DNA from: Clostridiales bacterium CHKCI006
GTDB taxonomy: Bacteria; Bacillota_I; Bacilli_A; Erysipelotrichales; Coprobacillaceae
NCBI GenBank assembly: GCA_900018345.1
Contig: FCNA01000008.1
Coordinates: forward strand, 1 to 47,955
DNA length: 47,955 bases
Reading direction: 5' to 3'
Shown here: piece by piece, positions 9,325 to 20,105 of the stretch
Layout: the number at the start of each line of letters is the position of its first letter
How positions within the stretch are numbered: the first letter of the stretch is position 1
Position numbers and translations under genes: made by a program
The notes under the pieces: generated by a model
Told to the model about the DNA's origin: nothing
The model's database searches: none
Seen by the model: only the letters and a program-made list of their open reading frames with translations

Positions 9325-11055
9325 CTATTTCATCTGCCAGGTATGGCTTTTCTGCTGCAACGAGAGCATATGCCAATAGATCCCTTTCTGTTTTTTCAAA
9401 TCTTCGGGCTTTCCCTCTTCAAGGATCCGACCATCCTTTAAGACAATTAAATGATCGGCATTAGTGATGGTCCGCATGCGATGTGCGATCATCAAAACGG
9501 TACGTCCCTGAACCAGATGACTTAAGGCCTTTTGAACATAAGTTTCACTCTCGACATCTAATGATGCACTTGCTTCATCTAAAAGAAGGATGGGAGCATT
9601 TTTTAGAATGGCTCGCGCAATGGAAATTCGCTGACGCTGTCCACCGGACAATTTAGATCCATTCTCACCAATTAGTGTCTCATAGCCATCCTCAAAATCA
9701 GCTACAAATTCATCCACATAAGCAAGTTTAGCCGCTTCAAGCACTTGTGCATCTGTCGCTCCCCTACGTCCTAAACGAATATTCTCCATGATCGTACCGT
9801 TAAAAAGAACGACATCCTGAAAAACGATGGCAACTTGCCCTAACAGGACTTCCGGATCGATCGTCGAGATATCGACCCCACCGATACGGATCGTTCCTGC
9901 ATCAATATCATAGAAACGACAGGCAAGATTAGCAATCGTGCTCTTTCCGCCACCGCTGTTCCCCACGAGTGCCGTCACTTCATTTTGTTTCGCCACAAAA
10001 CTGATGTCTTCTAAGACCCGCTGATCCTCTTGATAACCGAAGCTGACATGTTCAAAAGTGATGTCATAGTTCTCAGGCTGAAAGATCTTTGATCCAGTCT
10101 GTAAAGGAAGATCCTGAATCTCACTCAAACGCTCAATACGTGAACTGCAGCCAATCATCGCTGCCAGATTTTGTAAGGTGGCATTGAGCGGATCATAAAG
10201 TCGACTGGCGACAATCATAAATAGCAGAAATGTCTTAAAATCGATGACCTGTTCATAAAGCAGATATAATCCGACCAACACCGTTGTGACCAGACCTAGC
10301 TTAAGGATCAGCTGTGAGCTAACGACATAAAGCGCATTCGTCAATTCTAAGCGAATCTGACTCTTCTCGCAATCTTCGATGATATGCTCAGCTTCTTTTA
10401 AATACTTGTTTATAGCCTGATTGGCTTTCAAATCGCGAATCGCCTCGATGCCCTCCTGAATGATCTTCGTCCTCTCTAACTGCCTGACCCGGTCTTGCCG
10501 GCCTGCATTTTGTAAACGTCGGCTGGCTAGTCCAATCAAACCAAAGGCTACCGGGATACACCAGATGCTTGCCAGCGCCATGCGCCAGTCAAAAGTAAAC
10601 AGACCCAGACATAGAAGACTGGTTGCCAGCAAGGAACCGACAAATTCCGGAATGAAATGAGAGAGTGCCTGCTCCATATAAGTGACATCCGATAGGATCG
10701 TCGCCGTCAGATCAGAGAGATCCCGCCGCGCAAAGAAACTTAACGGAAACTGACGCAAACGTTCAGCGACCTCAATACGCAAACGAGCACTTTCCGTATA
10801 TGTGTTATAAAAAGTCATATTGTATTGGAGATAGTGAACGACAAAAAGCAGGATAAGTAATGCCCCCATTTCGACAAGACACCATCCAATGGGAATGGCT
10901 TGATCAATAATGCCGCTGATGACCTGATAAATAATCGCCATGCCAAGCGCAATGACTAAATAAGACAACGTACAGGAAAGACATGCCTTGACTAAATTTT
11001 TAGCTCCTAAAGGAGTCAGAGCAAAACGTCTTTGTATTTTTTTAAGCATGTTCAT
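9325..11055 (-). CDS. ABC half-transporter, YbtQ/IrtB-like (second subunit)
   Basis: The roughly 576-residue protein has an N-terminal six-helix ABC exporter-type membrane domain and a C-terminal ATPase with Walker A GNSGGGKST, signature LSGGQRQR, Walker B ILLLDEASASLD and H-loop IAHRMRT. With the preceding gene it should form a heterodimer. Pairs of this size behind an AraC/PchR-like regulator commonly belong to the YbtPQ/IrtAB-like group, which imports metal-siderophore complexes despite an exporter fold; drug or peptide export is the alternative. The frame opens at GTG 11058, but ATG 11055 follows AGGTG and is preferred. It overlaps the first half-transporter by 14 bases. Confidence 0.85.
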   Translation of the reverse strand: MNMLKKIQRRFALTPLGAKNLVKACLSCTLSYLVIALGMAIIYQVISGIIDQAIPIGWCLVEMGALLILLFVVHYLQYNMTFYNTYTESARLRIEVAERLRQFPLSFFARRDLSDLTATILSDVTYMEQALSHFIPEFVGSLLATSLLCLGLFTFDWRMALASIWCIPVAFGLIGLASRRLQNAGRQDRVRQLERTKIIQEGIEAIRDLKANQAINKYLKEAEHIIEDCEKSQIRLELTNALYVVSSQLILKLGLVTTVLVGLYLLYEQVIDFKTFLLFMIVASRLYDPLNATLQNLAAMIGCSSRIERLSEIQDLPLQTGSKIFQPENYDITFEHVSFGYQEDQRVLEDISFVAKQNEVTALVGNSGGGKSTIANLACRFYDIDAGTIRIGGVDISTIDPEVLLGQVAIVFQDVVLFNGTIMENIRLGRRGATDAQVLEAAKLAYVDEFVADFEDGYETLIGENGSKLSGGQRQRISIARAILKNAPILLLDEASASLDVESETYVQKALSHLVQGRTVLMIAHRMRTITNADHLIVLKDGRILEEGKPEDLKKQKGIYWHMLSLQQKSHTWQMK

Positions 11056-12808
11056 CACCTACTTTCCAATCAATGGATTCCTGATAGCTTTTCCACATCG
11101 CAGCATACTGGCCATTTTGAGAGATCAGTTCTGCATGCCGACCAGACTCAATGATCCGTCCCTGATCCAATACATAGATACGATCAACATTCACGATCGT
11201 TGATAAACGATGGGCGATCATGATGGTCGTCTTCCCTTTGGCAAGCCGTTTTAACGCTTTCTGCATCGCTTGTTCATTGTCGCTGTCTGCATAGGCAGTC
11301 GCCTCATCTAAAAGCAGGATCGGCGCCTTTTTCACAAACGCCCTGGCAAGACAAATCCGCTGTCGTTCTCCACCAGAAAGATAGACCCCTTTTGCTCCGA
11401 TCAACGTCTTTACACCTTCAGGAAACGCATCGATCATCTCCTCGCACTGCGCATCCTTCAAAGCCTGCAAGATTTCTTGGTCACTCACATCATATCCCAT
11501 TCGAACATTATCAGCAATGCTCTTATTCAGCAAATGGGCATCCTGGAATACAAAGGACATGAGATCCATGCGGGTCGCTTCATCCATCTGACGAATATCC
11601 ACTCCGCCGATACGAATGCTTCCACGACTGACATCATAGAAACGCGGAATCAGAGAAACAAGTGTCGACTTGCCCCCGCCGCTATGACCGACGAAGGCAA
11701 CCGTCATCCCTTCAGGAATCGTTAATGAGATATCATGTAATACTTCCTGCTGACTGTTCGGATAAGTAAAACTGACATGATCAAAAGTAATCTCAAAGCC
11801 CTGGGGCGAAGCAGGCGCATCGGGCTCATGAAGGGGACTGGTGGCCAGGATCTCCTGAATCCTTGTCAAACCGTCCTTGGCCATCATTGTATTTTCACTG
11901 GCAAACATCATCTTGTTAGTCGTTAGAGCCACTAATGGGCTTAAGATCAGATAAAACATGAAGTCAGGAAATAATCCTTGAACGTCCAGTCCGCTAGTCA
12001 GCAGTAAAAAAAGACAGCCAACAATAAAAATAAATAAAGCATTGACAATGGTGGAAAAACAAGTCATCGGAAGGCGCATCTGCCTGGTGTATCCTAAAGC
12101 AAATTTCTCATAGTTTTTAATTGCTGCATGAAACCGTTCAAAGGAAAAGACCGTTTGCTGAAAAGTCTTGACAACCGGGATCCCCCGCACATACTCCACC
12201 GCTTCATTACTCATCTTTTCCAAGGCATCCTGGTAAGCCTTCATGGCATCTGCCAGACCCGGACCAATCATCTTAAGCATATTCAGCATAGCCAAAATGA
12301 CCCCCATCAATGTCGCTACTCCCATGCGCCAGTCAAAAAGAAACAAACAGATCAAAATGACGATCAAAGTCGTCAGTAACTGAACAGAGTCCGGCAGTTG
12401 ATGAGCCAGGTAGGTCTCTGTGGAGGCCGCTGCTTCATCAATGACCTTGCGCAGCTTACCACTGCCCTGCTCCATAAAGTAACCCAATGGTAATTGCGCC
12501 ATGTGCTGCAAAGCCGCCTTGCGCATGTTGCTGGCAATACGAAACGCTGCCAGATGGGAGCAAAACAGGGACAGGACATAGATGAGGATCCCGCCTAAGG
12601 CACTGGCTAAAGCAAACCAGCCATAGCTTAGCGCCTGATCATAAGCAGCCTGCTGCAGCCCATGTTGCCAAAGGACCTGGATCACCGCCCAAATCATGAC
12701 AAAAGGAAGGACAAAAAGCAAACCGCTCAACATCGAAAGAAACAGGGATAACATAGTCAAATAACGATGCCTCCCAGCAAAAACAAACAAAGATTTCAAA
12801 ACTGACAT
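11042..12808 (-). CDS. ABC half-transporter, YbtP/IrtA-like (first subunit)
   Basis: The 588-residue protein has a six-helix membrane domain (about 1-310) and an ATPase with Walker A GHSGGGKS (374-381), a variant signature LSGGERQR, Walker B ILLLDEATAYAD and H-loop IAHRLST. AGGAGG precedes ATG 12808. The region between this start and the regulator gene carries a TATACT -10 box and a GTTAG-N6-CTAAC palindrome at the predicted transcription start, shared with the Fez-like, gpmA and ahpC promoters. That supports a metal- or redox-linked role rather than generic drug export. The substrate is not known. Confidence 0.85.
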   Translation of the reverse strand: MSVLKSLFVFAGRHRYLTMLSLFLSMLSGLLFVLPFVMIWAVIQVLWQHGLQQAAYDQALSYGWFALASALGGILIYVLSLFCSHLAAFRIASNMRKAALQHMAQLPLGYFMEQGSGKLRKVIDEAAASTETYLAHQLPDSVQLLTTLIVILICLFLFDWRMGVATLMGVILAMLNMLKMIGPGLADAMKAYQDALEKMSNEAVEYVRGIPVVKTFQQTVFSFERFHAAIKNYEKFALGYTRQMRLPMTCFSTIVNALFIFIVGCLFLLLTSGLDVQGLFPDFMFYLILSPLVALTTNKMMFASENTMMAKDGLTRIQEILATSPLHEPDAPASPQGFEITFDHVSFTYPNSQQEVLHDISLTIPEGMTVAFVGHSGGGKSTLVSLIPRFYDVSRGSIRIGGVDIRQMDEATRMDLMSFVFQDAHLLNKSIADNVRMGYDVSDQEILQALKDAQCEEMIDAFPEGVKTLIGAKGVYLSGGERQRICLARAFVKKAPILLLDEATAYADSDNEQAMQKALKRLAKGKTTIMIAHRLSTIVNVDRIYVLDQGRIIESGRHAELISQNGQYAAMWKSYQESIDWKVGDEHA

Positions 12809-12823
12809 AAAAAACCTCCTTTG

Positions 12824-12839
12824 GTTAGTTTAGACTAAC
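12824..12839. promoter_or_regulatory. GTTAG-N6-CTAAC operator at the ABC transporter promoter
   Basis: GTTAGTTTAGACTAAC is a near-perfect palindrome. On the minus strand it lies just after a TATACT -10 box (12853-12848), so it covers the predicted transcription start. The -35 box is weak (TAGTTA, 12876-12871), as expected for a regulated promoter. The same motif recurs at 16374, 16432, 17229, 19540 and 19615. Confidence 0.75.
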
Positions 12840-12892: not shown

Positions 12893-13840
12893 TCAATCCA
12901 TTTTCGCATAAAGTTGGCGATATTGTTGAGGGGTTAAGCCGGTTTCCTGCTGGAAAGCCGCCGCAAATTTACTTGGATTGGTATAACCGACCTTCCCGGC
13001 AATCTCAATAATGGACGCATCCGTTGTCTTGAGTAACAGCTGGCTGTAGGTGAGACGATAGTGTTTATACCATTGATAAAGTGGCATTCCGTAAATTTCC
13101 TTAAATAAGCGACGCACAGTAGACAGCGAAAAAGAATGTTTTTTCGCTAAAGCATTATAATCCGGACGGCTGGATAAGTCATGGATCATTTCCTGACGAA
13201 AACGTTCCAATGCCTCAATCACCTGTTTAGGATAATAAACCTTGTTTTCTGCCACCTGCTCAAAAGCCGTCTGGCTCAAAAAAAGCAAGAGTTCGAGCAC
13301 TTTGATTTGCAGATAATGCTGACGGATCCCAAGCGGCAGATCATACATCTGACTAAAAAGATGACAGATGGTTTCATTAGCTCTCTCGATATACAGATGA
13401 TGGGATAAGCGCAAACGCCTATACAGGTCGTTGATATCGATTGCGAACTGATCAAAAATATCCAGTAGACTGGCTTTGGCCACATCAATCAGCACTTCCA
13501 CTCCCTGATAGTAACCAAGCGACAATCTTGCGCGACCGCGATCAAGCAACCAGCTGCTCACCGAAAAATCGCCCACATCCAGATAAGCCAGATGATGTGC
13601 GTCATAAGGGCATTCAAATTTACCCTGGCGACAATGATTGATCTCGAGATAAGCATCCGTAGTATAAGTGCATTCAGGTAAGTCAAAGCAATGAAAATCA
13701 TTATAGATGACCTCGATTCCATCCCAGAGCTTGATACAGTACATGCGGCCATCTCCATTTACATCATCGACGATCCATAAGTACTCGCTCTGACCATATG
13801 ACTGAATATGCTTAGCTTTGATCTTTGATTTTTCAAGCAT
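12893..13840 (-). CDS. AraC-family regulator, PchR/YbtA-like
   Basis: In this 315-residue protein the N-terminal two thirds are a ligand-binding region with no cupin motif I can name. The C-terminal about 100 residues hold two helix-turn-helix motifs: ALAKKHSFSLSTVRRLFKEI, then IIEIAGKVGYTNPSKFAAAF with GLTPQQYR, the AraC signature. The overall form resembles PchR/YbtA regulators, which activate siderophore uptake genes, and the ABC pair follows directly. ATG 13840 has a poor ribosome-binding site, whereas a 16-codon upstream frame has an ideal one and overlaps this start. The protein may therefore be translationally coupled, or its true N-terminus may be hidden by a frameshift. Confidence 0.82.
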   Translation of the reverse strand: MLEKSKIKAKHIQSYGQSEYLWIVDDVNGDGRMYCIKLWDGIEVIYNDFHCFDLPECTYTTDAYLEINHCRQGKFECPYDAHHLAYLDVGDFSVSSWLLDRGRARLSLGYYQGVEVLIDVAKASLLDIFDQFAIDINDLYRRLRLSHHLYIERANETICHLFSQMYDLPLGIRQHYLQIKVLELLLFLSQTAFEQVAENKVYYPKQVIEALERFRQEMIHDLSSRPDYNALAKKHSFSLSTVRRLFKEIYGMPLYQWYKHYRLTYSQLLLKTTDASIIEIAGKVGYTNPSKFAAAFQQETGLTPQQYRQLYAKMD

Positions 13841-13883: not shown

Positions 13884-13990
13884 GATCCAATCTCCTTTTC
13901 CTTTCTAGCAGCTTTTTCCGTAGCTGATAACGGTCAACGGATGGTACCTATGTACGCAGATGATCGTCCAGGATAGACCGGACATTTTTC

Positions 13991-14020
13991 AAAAAATGAA
14001 ACGTCCTCAAGACGTTTCAT
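13991..14020 (-). terminator. Terminator after the P1B ATPase
   Basis: ATGAAACGTC (13996-14005) and GACGTTTCAT (14011-14020) form a perfect 10-bp stem with a 5-nt loop, followed by a T-run on the minus strand. It overlaps the ATPase stop codon and separates that operon from the AraC gene. Confidence 0.85.
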
Positions 14021-16127
14021 CCTTCAATAATGGTTGTGTCGCCAGTGCCGTCAGCACAAACGTCGATGTGTTATGCAGTAAGGCACCTGTTGTCGCTGGC
14101 AGCCAGCCTGCCATCCCACTGAAGATCAGCGCTGAATTCATGGTCACGATCTTGGCATAATTCAGATGAATGCGGCGCATCAGTTCTAAAGCGAGACTTC
14201 TGAATACCGCAATCTCTTCCAGGCGTCCATCAAGCAAAGTCACATCCGCCAGTTCACGGGCGATCGCAGAGCTATCCTGCATAGAAATAGAAACATCTGC
14301 ACTGGAAAGAGCCGGTGTGTCATTGACCCCATCGCCGACCATCACGACGACGTGCCCCTGACTTTTCAATTCCTGAATATATTGTGCTTTATCTTCGGGA
14401 AGGATCTCATAACGATAATCATCCACTTCTAATAACGAAGCAATGTGGCTGGCTGCCTGACGTCCATCCCCTGTCAGCATGACGATCTTCTTAAAGCCCA
14501 GTTGACGCAAACGGACCAACGTCGATCTGGCCTCCTGTTTGAGAGGATCATCAATGCTGATGATCCCAGCCAGCTGTCCGCCAATGGCTAAATAAATCAG
14601 GGAACTGGCTCCCTCTCTTTCCAATTGGTCTATAGCAAGCTTCACCTCAACTGTCAGAGGGATCTTCTCATCCTCAAAGACAAAATGGCTGCTGCCAATC
14701 ACAACTCGCTGTCCGTCTAAGCTTGATGCGATCCCATGAGCAATGATATATTCCACCTTGGCATGTCTCTCTTCGTGGATCAATCCTTCACTGGCCGCCC
14801 GGGTAACGATCGCATTGGCCATGCTGTGCGGAAAATGTTCTTCCAGACAAGCCGCAATGGATAAAACTTCCTCCCGACTATATTGGCCTAGACCTACTAC
14901 CTGTTGCACATGTGGACAAGCATGGGTCAATGTACCCGTTTTATCAAAAACGATGACATCAGCCTGAGCCATGGCCTCAATGTACTTACCGCCCTTTACC
15001 AGAATGCGATGTCGGCTGGCTTCCTGCATTGCACTGATCATTGCGACAGAAGTGGATAATTTAATCGCACAGGAATAATCCACCAGCAAAAGTGACATTG
15101 CTCTTGACAAACTGCGTGTGAAAAACAAGGTGCCAAGGAAGCCTATAAAACTATAAGGAACGATGGCGTCGGCTAAATGTTCCGCTTTGGCCTGAATCGC
15201 AGCTTTCGCCTGTGAATTCGTTTCAATCAGACTGATGATCTGCTGGATGCGACTGTCCTGTTGAATCTCACGAGTGTATATCTCGATTTCACCTTCTTCA
15301 ACAACAGTCCCGGCAAAAACACTCTGACCACCTCCCACCCGTTTAGACAAAGGTTCACCTGTAAAACTGGCTTCATTGACCATCGCTTCACCGGATATGA
15401 TCTCGCCGTCAACTGGGATCATCGCTCCCGTCGAAACAATGACAATATCACCGCGCTGCAGTTGATTGCTGGCGATCTGATGACGACCCGTCGTGTCTTT
15501 TACCCAAACTTTTTCAGTTTGCAGCGACAATTTTTCCGTCAGTGAGAGCGTGGTCTTATCACGCGTATAATCTTCTAAAAGGGCAGAAATCGATAATAGC
15601 AGCATGATATGACCCGCTGTCTGCATATTTTGACTCAATAGAGATAACGTAATGCTTGTCGCATCTAAGACCGGAACGTCTAAATGCCCTGCCAGCAAAG
15701 AAGACATCCCTTTTTTGAGATAGTGCCTGGCTGATAGACAACGTAAAAAATACTGAAGCGGCAACGGCAGCATTTTAGTCATCATATAACGTAAGCCTAT
15801 GCGAATCAATTGACCTCTATACTGCCTGAAGATCGCTTTCTGTCTCTTCTCATAACTAGCCAGTTCATCCAAATAACCTTGATATGCCGTATCATCCAGC
15901 TGACTTAAGGATAATGCATCCAGGCATTCTAACAGTGCTTCTTTTCTTGTGGCATCATAGTAAAATAACAGACTTCCTGTCCGCTCATTGACCTCGACTT
16001 GCCTGACCATTGGCCAGGATGAAAGCACTGGAACCAGTAATTGTCCGGTCCGGTGATCAAAAGCATAACGTCCTAAACGTACGCGCAAGCGTCCAGGCAT
16101 ATCATGCACGAGTTGATAACGTGCCAT
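14007..16127 (-). CDS. P1B-type metal ATPase, FezB-like (ferrosome-associated P1B6 class)
   Basis: The roughly 706-residue protein lacks a CxxC HMA domain. Its N-terminus instead has an arginine-rich PGRLRVRLGRY segment (residues 12-22). The core has the actuator loop TGEP (257-260), the TM metal site YSCA (352-355) in place of the usual CPC, DKTGT (396-400), a degenerate HP locus FPHSMANAIV (433-442), GDGVND (599-604) and a final LHNTST helix. An arginine-rich N-terminus, the non-CPC site and a tiny glycine-rich membrane partner just upstream are what I recall of P1B6 ATPases such as FezB, needed for iron-storing ferrosomes in Clostridioides difficile. Mn2+ or other Fe2+ pumps are alternatives. 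GTG 16130 is a second possible start; both overlap or abut the partner's stop. Confidence 0.8.
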   Translation of the reverse strand: MARYQLVHDMPGRLRVRLGRYAFDHRTGQLLVPVLSSWPMVRQVEVNERTGSLLFYYDATRKEALLECLDALSLSQLDDTAYQGYLDELASYEKRQKAIFRQYRGQLIRIGLRYMMTKMLPLPLQYFLRCLSARHYLKKGMSSLLAGHLDVPVLDATSITLSLLSQNMQTAGHIMLLLSISALLEDYTRDKTTLSLTEKLSLQTEKVWVKDTTGRHQIASNQLQRGDIVIVSTGAMIPVDGEIISGEAMVNEASFTGEPLSKRVGGGQSVFAGTVVEEGEIEIYTREIQQDSRIQQIISLIETNSQAKAAIQAKAEHLADAIVPYSFIGFLGTLFFTRSLSRAMSLLLVDYSCAIKLSTSVAMISAMQEASRHRILVKGGKYIEAMAQADVIVFDKTGTLTHACPHVQQVVGLGQYSREEVLSIAACLEEHFPHSMANAIVTRAASEGLIHEERHAKVEYIIAHGIASSLDGQRVVIGSSHFVFEDEKIPLTVEVKLAIDQLEREGASSLIYLAIGGQLAGIISIDDPLKQEARSTLVRLRQLGFKKIVMLTGDGRQAASHIASLLEVDDYRYEILPEDKAQYIQELKSQGHVVVMVGDGVNDTPALSSADVSISMQDSSAIARELADVTLLDGRLEEIAVFRSLALELMRRIHLNYAKIVTMNSALIFSGMAGWLPATTGALLHNTSTFVLTALATQPLLKDETS

Positions 16128-16129
16128 CA

Positions 16130-16357
16130 CTACTCACCATCTTTTTGCTTTTTGGCTTCATAGCAAAGATCTTTGGCATCTTCTCGGATGGTCTCCAGAG
16201 CCGCCATGGCATCATCCTTCGCTTTCATTCCGGTAGCGAGCGTCTTCACCGCCAACTGACGCGCCTTATCACTCTTAAGCAGTTTTGCGCCTGCTACAGC
16301 AGCTGCCACACCTCCTGTAAATGAGAGAAGGGCTACATTTCTTAAAAAACTTTTCAT
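16130..16357 (-). CDS. Small glycine-rich membrane protein, FezA-like
   Basis: The 75-residue protein has one hydrophobic helix (about 8-27) with closely spaced small residues, GGVAAAVAGA, a glycine-zipper-like pattern that promotes helix packing or membrane shaping. A charged amphipathic helix rich in Lys, Ala and Glu follows (about 29-75). Small proteins of this kind (DUF6110-like, from memory) accompany P1B ATPases in Firmicutes, and FezA, the membrane partner of FezB, is one. It has a strong AGGAGG site, is the first gene of the operon, and its stop overlaps the ATPase start. Its promoter is flanked by two GTTAG-N6-CTAAC sites. Confidence 0.7.
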   Translation of the reverse strand: MKSFLRNVALLSFTGGVAAAVAGAKLLKSDKARQLAVKTLATGMKAKDDAMAALETIREDAKDLCYEAKKQKDGE

Positions 16358-16373: not shown

Positions 16374-16391
16374 AGTTAGATGCATCTAACC
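16374..16391. promoter_or_regulatory. Operator 1 of the Fez-like operon
   Basis: AGTTAGATGCATCTAACC contains a perfect 16-bp palindrome GTTAGATGCATCTAAC. It covers the predicted start of transcription, seven bases after the -10 box on the minus strand. Confidence 0.78.
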
Positions 16392-16397
16392 ATTAAC

Positions 16398-16425
16398 AGC
16401 ATACGCTTTTTTGAAGAATAGTCAA
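16398..16425 (-). promoter_or_regulatory. Promoter of the Fez-like operon
   Basis: TTGACT (16425-16420), a 16-bp spacer and TATGCT (16403-16398) on the minus strand. It lies between two copies of the shared palindrome. Confidence 0.7.
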
Positions 16426-16431
16426 TATGAT

Positions 16432-16447
16432 GTTAGTCTATGCTAAC
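16432..16447. promoter_or_regulatory. Operator 2 of the Fez-like operon
   Basis: GTTAGTCTATGCTAAC, with TTAG and CTAA half-sites six bases apart, ends six bases upstream of the -35 box. Its centre is 57 bp from that of operator 1. Confidence 0.72.
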
Positions 16448-16461
16448 AATTTTAAACAACA

Positions 16462-17205
16462 TTATTTTGCTTTTCCCTGATTGGCCACCGCAGCCATTTT
16501 TTCCTGAAGTGCATTTTCATCTCCTAAATAGTAATGTTCCTTCACTTCAAACTGATCGTCCAGCTCATAAATCAGTGGTACACCGGTTGGAATATTCACC
16601 TGCAGGATTGCTTCCGGCGTCAGCTTCTCCAGATACATGACTAAGGCACGTAAAGAATTACCATGTGCTGCAATCAAAACACGCTTGCCCATTTTCATCT
16701 GAGGCAGGATCGCTTCACGATAATAAGGAACCACCCTGTCAATGGTTGTTTTTAAGCTCTCACAGTCTGGAAGTAAAGATGGGTCGATATCAGCATACAT
16801 AGCCTGATTTGCAGGATGACGATCATCGTCCAGATCCAAGGCAGGCGGCAAGACATCATAAGACCGACGCCAAAGCTTCACCTGTTCATCACCATATTTC
16901 GCTGCAGTTTCAGCCTTATTCAATCCCTGCAGGGCGCCATAATGTCTCTCGTTTAACTTCCAGGTCTTAATGACCGGCAAATAACAACGGTCCATTTCTG
17001 TCAAAACGTGATCAAGCGTATGTATCGCTCGTTTAAGATAGGACGTATAACATAGATCCATATGGATTCCAGCCTCTTTTAAAAGACGCCCAGCCTCGCT
17101 GGCTTCCTTATGTCCCCGATCGCTCAAGTCAACATCTGTCCAGCCTGTGAATAAATTCAGCTGGTTCCATTGACTTTCGCCATGTCTCAATAATACAAGT
17201 TTCAT
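16462..17205 (-). CDS. gpmA: 2,3-bisphosphoglycerate-dependent phosphoglycerate mutase
   Basis: The 247-residue protein starts [14 protein letters not shown] with the catalytic His8 (RHG motif). It continues with [15 protein letters not shown], the [13 protein letters not shown] active-site loop and the second catalytic histidine in [10 protein letters not shown]. It interconverts 3- and 2-phosphoglycerate in glycolysis through a phosphohistidine and needs no metal, unlike the Mn2+-dependent GpmI. It stands alone between metal- and peroxide-related genes and has its own promoter with a perfect copy of the shared operator, so it appears to be part of their regulon. Confidence 0.95.
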
Positions 17206-17228: not shown

Positions 17229-17246
17229 AGTTAGTCTAGACTAACT
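17229..17246. promoter_or_regulatory. Operator at the gpmA promoter
   Basis: AGTTAGTCTAGACTAACT is a perfect 18-bp palindrome, the best copy of the motif in the window. It starts at the predicted transcription start of gpmA. Confidence 0.82.
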
Positions 17247-17316: not shown

Positions 17317-17341
17317 AAAAAAAGAAGGCCGTTAAGCCTTC
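17317..17341 (-). terminator. Terminator of ahpC-ahpF
   Basis: GAAGGC (17324-17329) pairs with GCCTTC (17336-17341), and T7 follows on the minus strand. The reductase stop codon lies in the loop. Confidence 0.75.
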
Positions 17342-18942
17342 AGTAAAGCGAGTACCGTTTCAAGATTTTTCTTTCCGAAAGTGACCTCTTTCTCATCGAT
17401 GACAAGACAAGGAACACTCATGATCTTGTATTCTTCCTTCTTCTGCGGAAAATGATTGATATCAAAGATGCTGACATGAATCTTCGCATTTTCAATGGCC
17501 AATCGCTGGCAGGCCTGAACCAATTCCGGACACATCGTACAGGATAAAGAAACATAAAGATCTAGACGATGCGTATCCAGTGACTGAATGGCTTGCTGGA
17601 TCGATGCATCCAAAGGTGTGGCTGTCGAGCAGCCTGAAAAATAGACAGCCAGGACAAAGGAGTTGAATTCATGTCCGCCTGGTACCAGATGGTAGATGAT
17701 TCCCTGATCCTGACCTTCAGCCAAGACCTCAATATAAGGTGAAGCAGGAGCATCCGTTCTTTCATCAAGACGAATATGATCGTTCAAGGCTGCGAATTCG
17801 CTGGCAAACTGCTTCATCTCTAAGCCAAAATCATCGTTGGTCACTGCAACTTTGAGAGTGACCTCATGGTCTAATCGAGCTAAGATAGGCGCTAACTGTT
17901 CGATGATCTCCTGACTGATAAAACGATCATCCGCTAGTGGTGCATCCGCATGCTTCACTTTGGGTTGAGGCGTCTTTTGTATCTTGATGGTTTCAAGATG
18001 CGCTTCCTGACATGTTTTGGAAATATATTTTTCTAAGGCAGTCGCTGCCAAAGCGCCATCACTGACCGCTGTGACGACCTGCCGCAGATCCTTCTCACAA
18101 ATATCTCCCGCGCCATAGACACCGGCAATGTTGGTTGCCTGGTGTCTGTCTGTCACTAGATAACCGCCTTGATTCAGTTCAAGCTGATCCTTGAACAGTT
18201 CATTGGCGGGCACATAACCGGCAAAAACAAAGATACCAAAACGCCCATGTTCACTGGCCTCATAACGCCAGGTCTCACCTGTCCGATTATTCCGGAAAAC
18301 GGCATATTCCAGACTGTCTTCACCACCGGCCTCAATGATCTCAGTCTCAAAGATACATTCGATCTTCGGATGTTCACGTGCTTCATCTGCGATCGATTTG
18401 GCCGCAGTGAAATCTTCCTCACGCACGATCATCGTCACTTTGGTTGCATATTGCGTTAAGAAAACAGCCTCTTCACAAGCCGCAAACCCACCACCGATCA
18501 CAAAAAGTTCACAACCCTCGAAGAATTCTCCATCACAGGTAGCACAATAGGCAATGCCGCGTCCCTGGAAAGTCTTTTCACCCGGAAAGCCAAGCTGACG
18601 TGGATGAGCGCCGGTTGCCAGGACCAGTCCAACACAGGACAATTCTCCTTTATCTGTCTTGACCTTTTTGATACTGCCTTCCAATTGGAGTGACTGCACT
18701 TCACACAACTGAAATCTGGCACCAAAGTGTTCTGCCTGCTGGCGCATCTTCTGTGTTAGTCCGGTTCCGGAATCTTCCAGCACACCAGGATAATTCACGA
18801 TCTCAGAAGTGATCGTGATCTGTCCTCCGAATTTTTCTTTTTCTAAGACCAGAACAGAATATTTTGCACGTGCCAGATAGATCGCGGCAGCGAGCCCGGC
18901 AGGCCCGCCGCCCACGATAATGGCATCATAGATGGTTTCCAT
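17332..18942 (-). CDS. AhpF-like peroxiredoxin reductase with C-terminal thioredoxin folds
   Basis: In this 536-residue flavoprotein residues 1-310 are thioredoxin reductase-like: FAD motif GGGPAG (11-16), redox pair CATC (133-136), a second dinucleotide motif GGGFAA (150-155) and GAGDICEKDLRQ (277-288). Residues about 345-536 carry thioredoxin-fold repeats, the last with CTMC (468-471). Classical AhpF has the opposite order (thioredoxin folds first). This order matches the AhpF homologues found beside a single AhpC (TIGR03143-type, from memory). It should pass electrons from NAD(P)H to AhpC. The start overlaps the ahpC stop (TAATG), so the two are coupled. Confidence 0.88.
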   Translation of the reverse strand: METIYDAIIVGGGPAGLAAAIYLARAKYSVLVLEKEKFGGQITITSEIVNYPGVLEDSGTGLTQKMRQQAEHFGARFQLCEVQSLQLEGSIKKVKTDKGELSCVGLVLATGAHPRQLGFPGEKTFQGRGIAYCATCDGEFFEGCELFVIGGGFAACEEAVFLTQYATKVTMIVREEDFTAAKSIADEAREHPKIECIFETEIIEAGGEDSLEYAVFRNNRTGETWRYEASEHGRFGIFVFAGYVPANELFKDQLELNQGGYLVTDRHQATNIAGVYGAGDICEKDLRQVVTAVSDGALAATALEKYISKTCQEAHLETIKIQKTPQPKVKHADAPLADDRFISQEIIEQLAPILARLDHEVTLKVAVTNDDFGLEMKQFASEFAALNDHIRLDERTDAPASPYIEVLAEGQDQGIIYHLVPGGHEFNSFVLAVYFSGCSTATPLDASIQQAIQSLDTHRLDLYVSLSCTMCPELVQACQRLAIENAKIHVSIFDINHFPQKKEEYKIMSVPCLVIDEKEVTFGKKNLETVLALLKA

Positions 18943-19505
18943 TAGAGTGCACCAACAAGATCAAAAGATGGCTTCAAGGTCTTTTCGCCTGGTTTCCATT
19001 TCGCCGGACAAACCTCATCGCCATGTTCATAGACAAACTGGCTGGCCTGAACACGACGCAAGAGTTCTTCGGCATTTCTTCCGACACTTCCAGCGATGAC
19101 TTCATAAGCGACGATCTGCCCTTCCGGATTCACAATAAAGGTTCCACGTTCCGCCATTCCATCACTTTCAATATACACCTCAAAATCCTTCGCTAAAGCT
19201 GCTGTTGGATCCGCCAGCATGGTGTACTGAATTTTCTGAATCGTTTTCGATGTATCATGCCAGGCTTTGTGGACATAATGTGAATCACAGGAAACGGAGT
19301 AAATATCACAACCGATCTTCTGGAACTCATCATATGTGGTCGCTAAATCTTCTAATTCTGTAGGGCAAACAAAGGTAAAGTCCGCTGGGTAAAAGAAGAA
19401 GACATTCCATTTTCCCATCACATCTGATTTAGATACTTCTTTAAATTCTCCATTGGCATATGCCTGAACTTTAAAATCACTGATTTCTTTTCCAATTAAT
19501 GACAT
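18942..19505 (-). CDS. ahpC: Peroxiredoxin AhpC
   Basis: The 187-residue typical 2-Cys peroxiredoxin has the peroxidatic Cys47 in FTFVCPTE and the resolving Cys166 in EVCPAKWKPG. It reduces hydrogen peroxide and organic hydroperoxides in the cytoplasm and is recycled by the co-translated reductase. Its promoter has one GTTAG-N6-CTAAC site just after the transcription start and a second, imperfect one upstream. No PerR-type box was seen. Confidence 0.96.
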   Translation of the reverse strand: MSLIGKEISDFKVQAYANGEFKEVSKSDVMGKWNVFFFYPADFTFVCPTELEDLATTYDEFQKIGCDIYSVSCDSHYVHKAWHDTSKTIQKIQYTMLADPTAALAKDFEVYIESDGMAERGTFIVNPEGQIVAYEVIAGSVGRNAEELLRRVQASQFVYEHGDEVCPAKWKPGEKTLKPSFDLVGAL

Positions 19506-19539: not shown

Positions 19540-19557
19540 AGTTAGTCTTGGCTAACT
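19540..19557. promoter_or_regulatory. Operator 1 at the ahpC promoter
   Basis: AGTTAGTCTTGGCTAACT has intact TTAG and CTAA half-sites six bases apart and starts about four bases after the predicted transcription start. Extra GTTAG repeats lie immediately to the left (19532-19541). Confidence 0.72.
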
Positions 19558-19614: not shown

Positions 19615-19630
19615 GTCAGCCTATGCTAAC
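19615..19630. promoter_or_regulatory. Operator 2 at the ahpC promoter (imperfect)
   Basis: GTCAGCCTATGCTAAC has one changed half-site base (TCAG for TTAG) and is otherwise the shared motif. It lies upstream of the -35 box, mirroring the second site of the Fez-like operon. Confidence 0.55.
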
Positions 19631-19652: not shown

Positions 19653-20096
19653 TTACCTTAAATGATACGCATATATCTGTAATAGCGTTTTTTCAAACCT
19701 TTCTTGCAACCAGCGACTCTCACTGATTTCATCCTCATTCACACCTAAACAAAAAACCTGATGATTTGAAAACCATTCTTGTATCTTCTCACAAGTTGAT
19801 ACCTGATCCATTCCGCCTACCCAATACACCAGCAATAAAGCTTCTTGTGACAGCTGATCTTGAATGATCCTAAAATTCTCTAAATTCATATAGGGAGCCC
19901 CAAGCACGACCAGGTCCATGCCTCCTAGCTCGCACGCATAATCATTCAATTCACCTGTCTTAAAATCTGTTGTCGCGATCAGCGCATCCGTCATATTATG
20001 TACTAAGTCGTTGTGATCATCAACAATAACGCATGCATCTAACGGAAAACTAATCATCATGATTTGAAGCAGCAGACTGATTATGATTCTTCCCAT
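19653..20096 (-). CDS. Small secreted or flavodoxin-like protein of unknown function
   Basis: The frame gives about 147 residues from ATG 20096; a GTG at 20105 is a second option, and both have weak ribosome-binding sites. The N-terminus is a hydrophobic stretch (about 3-20) ending near a Cys, like a signal peptide. The rest reads as alternating strands and helices, including MDLVVLGAPYMNLENFR and LLLVYWVGG, reminiscent of a flavodoxin or Rossmann-like fold. I do not recognise the family. It lies directly upstream of the ahpC promoter in the same direction. Confidence 0.5.
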   Translation of the reverse strand: MGRIIISLLLQIMMISFPLDACVIVDDHNDLVHNMTDALIATTDFKTGELNDYACELGGMDLVVLGAPYMNLENFRIIQDQLSQEALLLVYWVGGMDQVSTCEKIQEWFSNHQVFCLGVNEDEISESRWLQERFEKTLLQIYAYHLR

Positions 20097-20105
20097 ACGT
20101 ATCAC

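Follow-up and report, generated by a model that had tools for sequence, protein, structure and literature searches.

A putative FezAB-type operon headed by DtxR-type operator boxes in Clostridiales bacterium CHKCI006

On the minus strand of the window, i.e. the whole stretch of 47,955 nucleotides that was analysed, a gene for a small DUF6110 membrane protein is followed by a gene for a P1B6-type metal ATPase that belongs to the same clade as the ferrosome pump FezB from Clostridioides difficile, and the pair is preceded by two exact copies of a palindrome that recurs ahead of iron uptake genes of this genome. Based on these features we consider it fairly probable that the two genes form a FezAB-type operon, in which a FezA scaffold and a FezB pump would serve the storage of Fe2+ under the control of a short DtxR-type repressor acting on the two boxes. 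The initial annotation had already proposed an operon of the FezAB type in another lineage under a different operator type, and sequence comparison supports this interpretation, the operator being of the DtxR type. The link between DUF6110 proteins and P1B6 ATPases is part of the published literature, and it is the operator with its regulon that is the less expected part.

Results

Gene layout

The two genes and the elements that frame them are arranged as follows:

16130..16357, minus strand: fezA-like gene, 75-codon open reading frame for a DUF6110 (PacL-like) single-pass membrane protein
14007..16130, minus strand: fezB-like gene, 707 amino acids counted from GTG, P1B6-type metal ATPase
13990..14024, minus strand: terminator-like hairpin and T-run across the fezB stop codon (RNA fold)
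16375..16390: palindrome GTTAGATGCATCTAAC, exact GTTAG-N6-CTAAC, between the -10 element and the fezA ribosome-binding site
16398..16425, minus strand: promoter-like site TTGACT-16-TATGCT (found solely by consensus scan, with 9 of 12 matches)
16432..16447: palindrome GTTAGTCTATGCTAAC, exact GTTAG-N6-CTAAC, immediately upstream of the -35 element

Both open reading frames, the one of 75 codons with its GGVAAAVAGA stretch and the one of 707 codons, were found at the positions given in the initial annotation, and they overlap by one base, as the fezA TAG at 16130 coincides with the start of the fezB frame. The junction reads TAGTGATG, where the GTG shares one base with the fezA stop codon; this makes the ATG at 16127 the likelier start of fezB and suggests that fezB is probably translationally coupled to fezA. 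The strong hairpin (-15.7 kcal/mol, z -5.1) together with the T-run over the fezB stop codon indicates that fezAB is probably a two-gene transcription unit; the hairpin is not among the sites listed by the consensus terminator scan. Read along the minus strand towards fezA, a first box is followed by TTGACT-16-TATGCT, the second box, the ribosome-binding site and the ATG.

The FezA-like protein

The small protein matches Pfam family PF19605 (DUF6110; E=1.3e-8, 35.3 bits vs a cut-off of 26), as does C. difficile FezA (E=1.5e-23), with which it shares 33% identity across 63 residues (E=4e-10). Against DUF1490, the family of mycobacterial PacL, it scores 17.3 bits, i.e. below the cut-off of 28.4. 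The sequence consists of a GGVAAAVAGAK helix, in which the conserved glycines are kept, and a charged helix, and ends in the tail EAKKQKDGE, where no C-terminal metal-binding motif of the His/Asp kind was found. With 75 vs 131 residues in C. difficile FezA, the long C-terminal tail is missing here. Structure prediction (AF2), suggested earlier as a check on this protein, yielded two helices (residues 2-28 and 30-73) with low confidence and the structural search returned no PDB relative of FezA, so that its fold was kept out of the evidence. DUF6110, a relative of PacL, has been described as a family found mainly in Firmicutes, the genes of which typically accompany those of P1B6 ATPases (Boudehen et al., PMC9374683).

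The FezB-like ATPase

The ATPase is 41% identical to C. difficile FezB over 706 alignment columns, i.e. over its full length, so that the pair represents a homologous minimal fez-type system in another lineage. Its predicted structure shows the P1B fold, with CopA and ZntA as closest structural neighbours. The following domain and motifs were located:

15915..16118, minus strand: HMA_2-like N-terminal domain, residues 5-72 (Pfam HMA_2, E=1.3e-5, a match under the family's cut-off)
15066..15077, minus strand: TM4 metal-site motif YSCA (S353, C354), of which S and C do not vary within the clade (alignments A2 and A4)
14931..14945, minus strand: phosphorylation motif DKTGT (D396; alignment A2)
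14061..14075, minus strand: last-TM motif HNTST (H686, N687, T690), HNxxT invariant in alignments A2 and A4

The N-terminal domain is predicted to have the order strand-strand-helix-strand-strand-helix, and its arginine-rich start reads VHDMPGRLRVRLGRY, where GRxR (R14 and R16, both invariant in alignment A2) replaces the Cys metal site. Both this N-terminus and the YSCA motif, which in TM4 stands in the context DYSCA, had been pointed out in the initial annotation. However, YSCA instead of CPC is real but not an anomaly, as S and C are found clade-wide and SC[AG] is common to the clade, whereas TM4 carries CPC in the Cu, Zn/Cd and CtpC-like pumps that were compared. Judging from the alignments, both the replacement of CPC by SCA and the HNxST of the final membrane helix thus characterise the clade and are no oddities of this pump. 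P1B4 Fe2+ efflux pumps such as PfeT and FrvA carry SPC in TM4; a pump of this type was rejected by motif comparison only, TM4 of the ATPase having SCA. The HN motif is given as a feature of P1B6 ATPases (PMC9374683).

Phylogeny and distribution

In an IQ-TREE phylogeny of 47 proteins, which is without a confirmed P1B4 reference, the ATPase and C. difficile FezB fall into one clade (support 100/99, recovered in 100% of the bootstrap trees) that also takes in pumps of other Firmicutes and of a spirochaete as well as a plasmid-encoded Deinococcus pump accompanied by DUF6110. The sister clade is made up of plasmid-borne proteobacterial P1B6 pumps (100/100), and Priestia/Fusobacterium HMA2-type pumps, a Rhodococcus DUF1490-type (CtpC-like) pump as well as Cu and Zn/Cd exporters lie outside. 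The question of whether the ATPase groups with P1B6 pumps, for which a phylogeny had been proposed at the outset, is thus answered in favour of FezB, and within the clade the ATPase and its relatives form a subclade distinct from that of C. difficile.

C. difficile genomes contain a single DUF6110 gene, located directly upstream of a P1B6 ATPase gene in the same arrangement as here. C. difficile fezAB has been assigned to CD630_05910-05920 (PMC11651100), listed elsewhere as an ATPase and a hypothetical gene that are raised in a fur mutant and at low iron (PMC6311696). From the single DUF6110 gene and these locus tags it follows that the C. difficile pump in our comparison is FezB. Experimental proof of ferrosome storage by this operon is ascribed to Pi et al. 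2023 in the passages of PMC12574912 and PMC11651100 that refer to it.

FezB orthologues are present in 8 of 43 genomes of the same family, this genome counted; those of the seven relatives are 54-59% identical to the ATPase. The same-family orthologues score 753-887 bits vs at most 246 for the next P1B pumps, and each is immediately preceded by a DUF6110-like gene, a recurrence that speaks against a chance arrangement. A scan of named genomes that excluded near neighbours of this genome yielded 80 FezB relatives with 40-47% identity, nearly all of them from gut and rumen Firmicutes. Of 88 fez loci searched with a profile derived from FezA, 86 have a FezA-type reading frame upstream; the other two both begin near a contig edge. 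Within the family the patchy fez genes lie beside ABC transporter genes in two genomes (G036 and G012) and in other neighbourhoods elsewhere, and patchiness and varied neighbourhoods together suggest horizontal movement or repeated loss.

Operator and regulon

The palindrome GTTAG-N6-CTAAC, which had been noted earlier as an operator of a different type, is present, but it is one of about 30 in this genome rather than a peculiarity of fezA (30 sites vs 4 for the reversed pattern). Around the fez genes, the window contains these further sites and associated genes:

9325..12808, minus strand: heterodimeric ABC pair resembling YbtPQ/IrtAB; putative importer of iron-siderophores, belongs to the same regulon
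12824..12839: same palindrome, ahead of this neighbouring ABC pair
17230..17245: same palindrome, perfect, ahead of gpmA (16462-17205, minus strand)
19541..19556: same palindrome, ahead of ahpC (18942-19505, minus strand) and an AhpF-like gene (17332-18942, minus strand)
19615-19630: near copy of the palindrome, upstream of ahpC

Elsewhere in the genome the box precedes feoA-feoB (contig C103) and, with three sites, feoA-feoA-feoB (C113), which marks the operator as iron-type. It is also found ahead of a ZupT-like ZIP transporter (C12), TetR- or AraC-linked heterodimeric ABC pairs (C8; several on C25), enolase (C82) and L-lactate dehydrogenase (C55) as well as at a HoxE/FeFe-hydrogenase-like gene run (C163), and some few sites adjoin genes without an evident iron link. 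That gpmA, enolase and L-lactate dehydrogenase carry the box alongside iron uptake genes suggests an iron-sparing shift to lactate.

For the ABC pair of the window, the siderophore-iron importers YbtPQ and IrtA are the nearest bacterial half-transporters of known structure. The 588-residue subunit scores 323 bits against YbtP and 286 against IrtA vs 235 against MsbA; the second subunit reaches 261 bits against YbtQ and scores about equally against a Thermotoga exporter.

Several observations concern the surroundings of such genes. AraC-family regulator genes lie beside YbtPQ-like ABC pairs in the window (12893-13840, minus strand) and at L172:3138-4091 and L108:1271-2227; these regulators have a conserved N-terminus, and the arrangement is reminiscent of YbtA beside YbtPQ. 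L107 and L108 (C25:18000-50000) comprise a methyltransferase-like gene and several TetR/AraC-linked heterodimeric ABC pairs, most of which have an iron-type box, and this cluster is possibly a siderophore or metallophore island. Upstream of ahpC, a 150-residue reading frame (19653-20105, minus strand), the 3' end of which is just followed by the near-copy box at 19615, has no Pfam or NCBIfam match above cut-off. A DUF4405 membrane gene, i.e. a member of the family to which we take FezC to be related, is located at L204:4422-5102 (C60), and a near-match box, TTTAGGTTATCCTAAC, lies at L204:4137 inside the preceding gene.

Among the relatives, the box occurs ahead of feoA or feoAAB genes in G006, G007, G008 and G009 and ahead of siderophore- or haem-type ABC operons in G006 and G007. 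Three of the seven relatives have it ahead of their fez genes; in G036 and G010 it is immediately upstream, in G037 it is about 155 bp up with one end altered, in G012 it heads a longer ABC-fez gene run, and in G022 it is absent upstream of the fez genes.

When the 260 bp ahead of fezA were scanned in the 83 fez loci with sufficient upstream sequence, TTAG-N6-CTAA was found in 21, as against a mean of 0.64 and a maximum of 3 after shuffling, and a Fur-like box, up to two mismatches being allowed, in 8 (mean after shuffling 0.47). Thus, fez operons appear to be under at least two operator types, and as TTAG-N6-CTAA is shared by other fez loci, the type of regulator is not essential to the fez kind. 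Upstream of the fezA gene studied here there are TTAG-N6-CTAA boxes instead of a Fur-like box. A limited literature search found no description of this operator or regulon in this lineage.

Candidate repressor

The genome search found no Fur; the sole FUR-family gene is best matched by PerR models and adjoins a rubrerythrin-like gene. DtxR-family genes are present, and the candidate repressors among them have the length of MntR and are best matched by MntR models. For one of these, L122 (contig C78), the relative in G008 is divergent from feoAAB with boxes in the gap between, and both proteins have Met at the position of DtxR Met10 and DACxIEH where DtxR has EACRWEH. The L179 regulator likewise has Met and Cys where MntR has Asp and Glu. 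We take the metal ligands of DtxR to be Met10, Cys102, Glu105 and His106, and MntR to have Asp8 at the position of Met10. On this basis, the repressor acting on the boxes is likely a short DtxR/MntR-type regulator like L122, in which the iron ligands are of the DtxR type.

In G036 a different DtxR-family gene directly follows fezB. Two near-identical modules of an ABC transporter and a DtxR-family gene (L120, C82:2461; L121, C94:67004), with Asp at the first metal-ligand position, are possibly located on a mobile element.

Discussion

We propose that the DUF6110 protein FezA acts as one-helix membrane scaffold that would bind FezB and cluster it in membrane patches, where FezB may remove Fe2+ from the cytosol and deliver it, most likely to internal membrane compartments, for storage, possibly as granules, in the way of the C. 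difficile ferrosomes. When iron is plentiful, the short DtxR-type repressor would occupy the two boxes around the promoter and keep fezAB off, whereas at low iron it would leave the boxes and fezAB would be made together with the iron importers, so that a surge might be stored safely once iron returns. We favour storage over detoxifying efflux as co-expression with importers under starvation would be ill-suited to an exporter. Against this proposal count the shorter FezA, the separate subclade, the efflux role that PacL-like DUF6110 proteins could have just as well and the presence of a ferritin in this genome.

That efflux role is the core of the strongest alternative, i.e. an effluxosome in the plasma membrane, where the P1B6 pump would be gathered by the DUF6110 protein, like CtpC by PacL1, and iron or another metal would leave the cell. 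DUF6110 has been likened to PacL, and PacL proteins build efflux platforms of P-ATPases (PMC9374683, PMC13043812); the conserved glycines are retained in the FezA helix, and the FezA of L010 also weakly matches DUF1490. Nevertheless, we regard this as unlikely, since an operator in common with feoAB implies expression at iron scarcity, which is the wrong time for detoxifying export, the FezA-like protein is devoid of a C-terminal metal-binding motif, and the clade holds an experimentally proven ferrosome pump.

The length of the candidate repressors and their best matches to MntR models, the ZupT-like transporter in the regulon and the fact that some Feo systems import Mn (PMC11651100) would also fit a pump for Mn2+, Zn2+ or another ion, with the box defining a manganese (MntR) regulon. 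Yet the box is found at two feoAB operons, YbtPQ-like ABC pairs and the siderophore- or haem-type ABC operons of relatives, L122 and L179 carry the DtxR-like Met and Cys instead of the Asp and Glu of MntR, no Nramp Mn importer was found in this genome, and zupT and fezAB both appear in the C. difficile low-iron/fur table (PMC6311696), which renders a manganese regulon rather improbable. Finally, a P1B exporter of the common copper, zinc or cadmium kind next to an unrelated small reading frame is hardly conceivable, for although the ATPase exceeds the cut-offs of the general models TIGR01525 and TIGR01512, it stands apart from CopA, CadA and SilP in the tree, has YSCA instead of CPC and belongs to a family in fixed pairing with DUF6110.

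A fezAB-type storage operon may be part of a wider scheme: the chances seem about even that Firmicutes possess an iron regulon in which a short DtxR-type repressor and GTTAG-N6-CTAAC boxes jointly govern ferrosome formation, Feo, siderophore-type ABC importers, the peroxide defence genes ahpCF, a hydrogenase-type operon and the lower part of glycolysis down to lactate. If so, the control of ferrosome operons would have passed between Fur and DtxR-type repressors on several occasions. To our knowledge, the number of bacteria with proven ferrosomes is small. A two-gene FezAB from a second lineage, in a genome where no Fur was found and with an operator that can be read from the sequence, might thus serve as a minimal system for the requirements of an iron organelle, and the fez-type operons seen across many Firmicutes, with a box of either the TTAG-N6-CTAA or the Fur type, would predict which gut anaerobes store iron when starved.

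Comparison with known systems

The operon resembles fezAB from C. difficile in the order of a DUF6110 membrane protein and a P1B6 ATPase, in GRxR, SCA and HNxST, and probably in an iron-type regulation. It differs in having a DtxR-type palindrome instead of a Fur box, a FezA of 75 residues devoid of the long tail, overlapping genes and a place in a separate subclade; moreover, granules are known in C. difficile, whereas the system described here is known from its genes.

With the mycobacterial Zn efflux platform PacL1-CtpC (DUF1490 and a P1B6-like ATPase) it shares a small single-TM partner encoded directly upstream (PMC9374683, PMC13043812), a glycine-containing TM helix and the HN motif. However, CtpC has CPC in TM4 where the ATPase studied here has YSCA, the small protein stays below the DUF1490 cut-off and lacks the C-terminal metal-binding motif, and the CtpC-like pump from Rhodococcus lies outside the clade.

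Gram-negative fez clusters, reportedly described in 2022 by Grant et al. for Desulfovibrio magneticus, Rhodopseudomonas and Shewanella, are said to have the P1B6 ATPase FezB as core and to include FezC, a DUF4405-type cytochrome, and further genes. FezB is thus the common core, whereas the operon in the window has two genes and no FezC, the DUF4405 gene being located elsewhere (C60).

Finally, TTAG...CTAA palindromes ahead of iron uptake genes and the DtxR-type ligands of the candidate repressor are reminiscent of DtxR/IdeR iron regulons, although here the repressor would be of MntR length, the box is a single palindrome of 14-16 bp with N6 spacing, and the regulon extends to a ferrosome-type operon and to genes of glycolysis.
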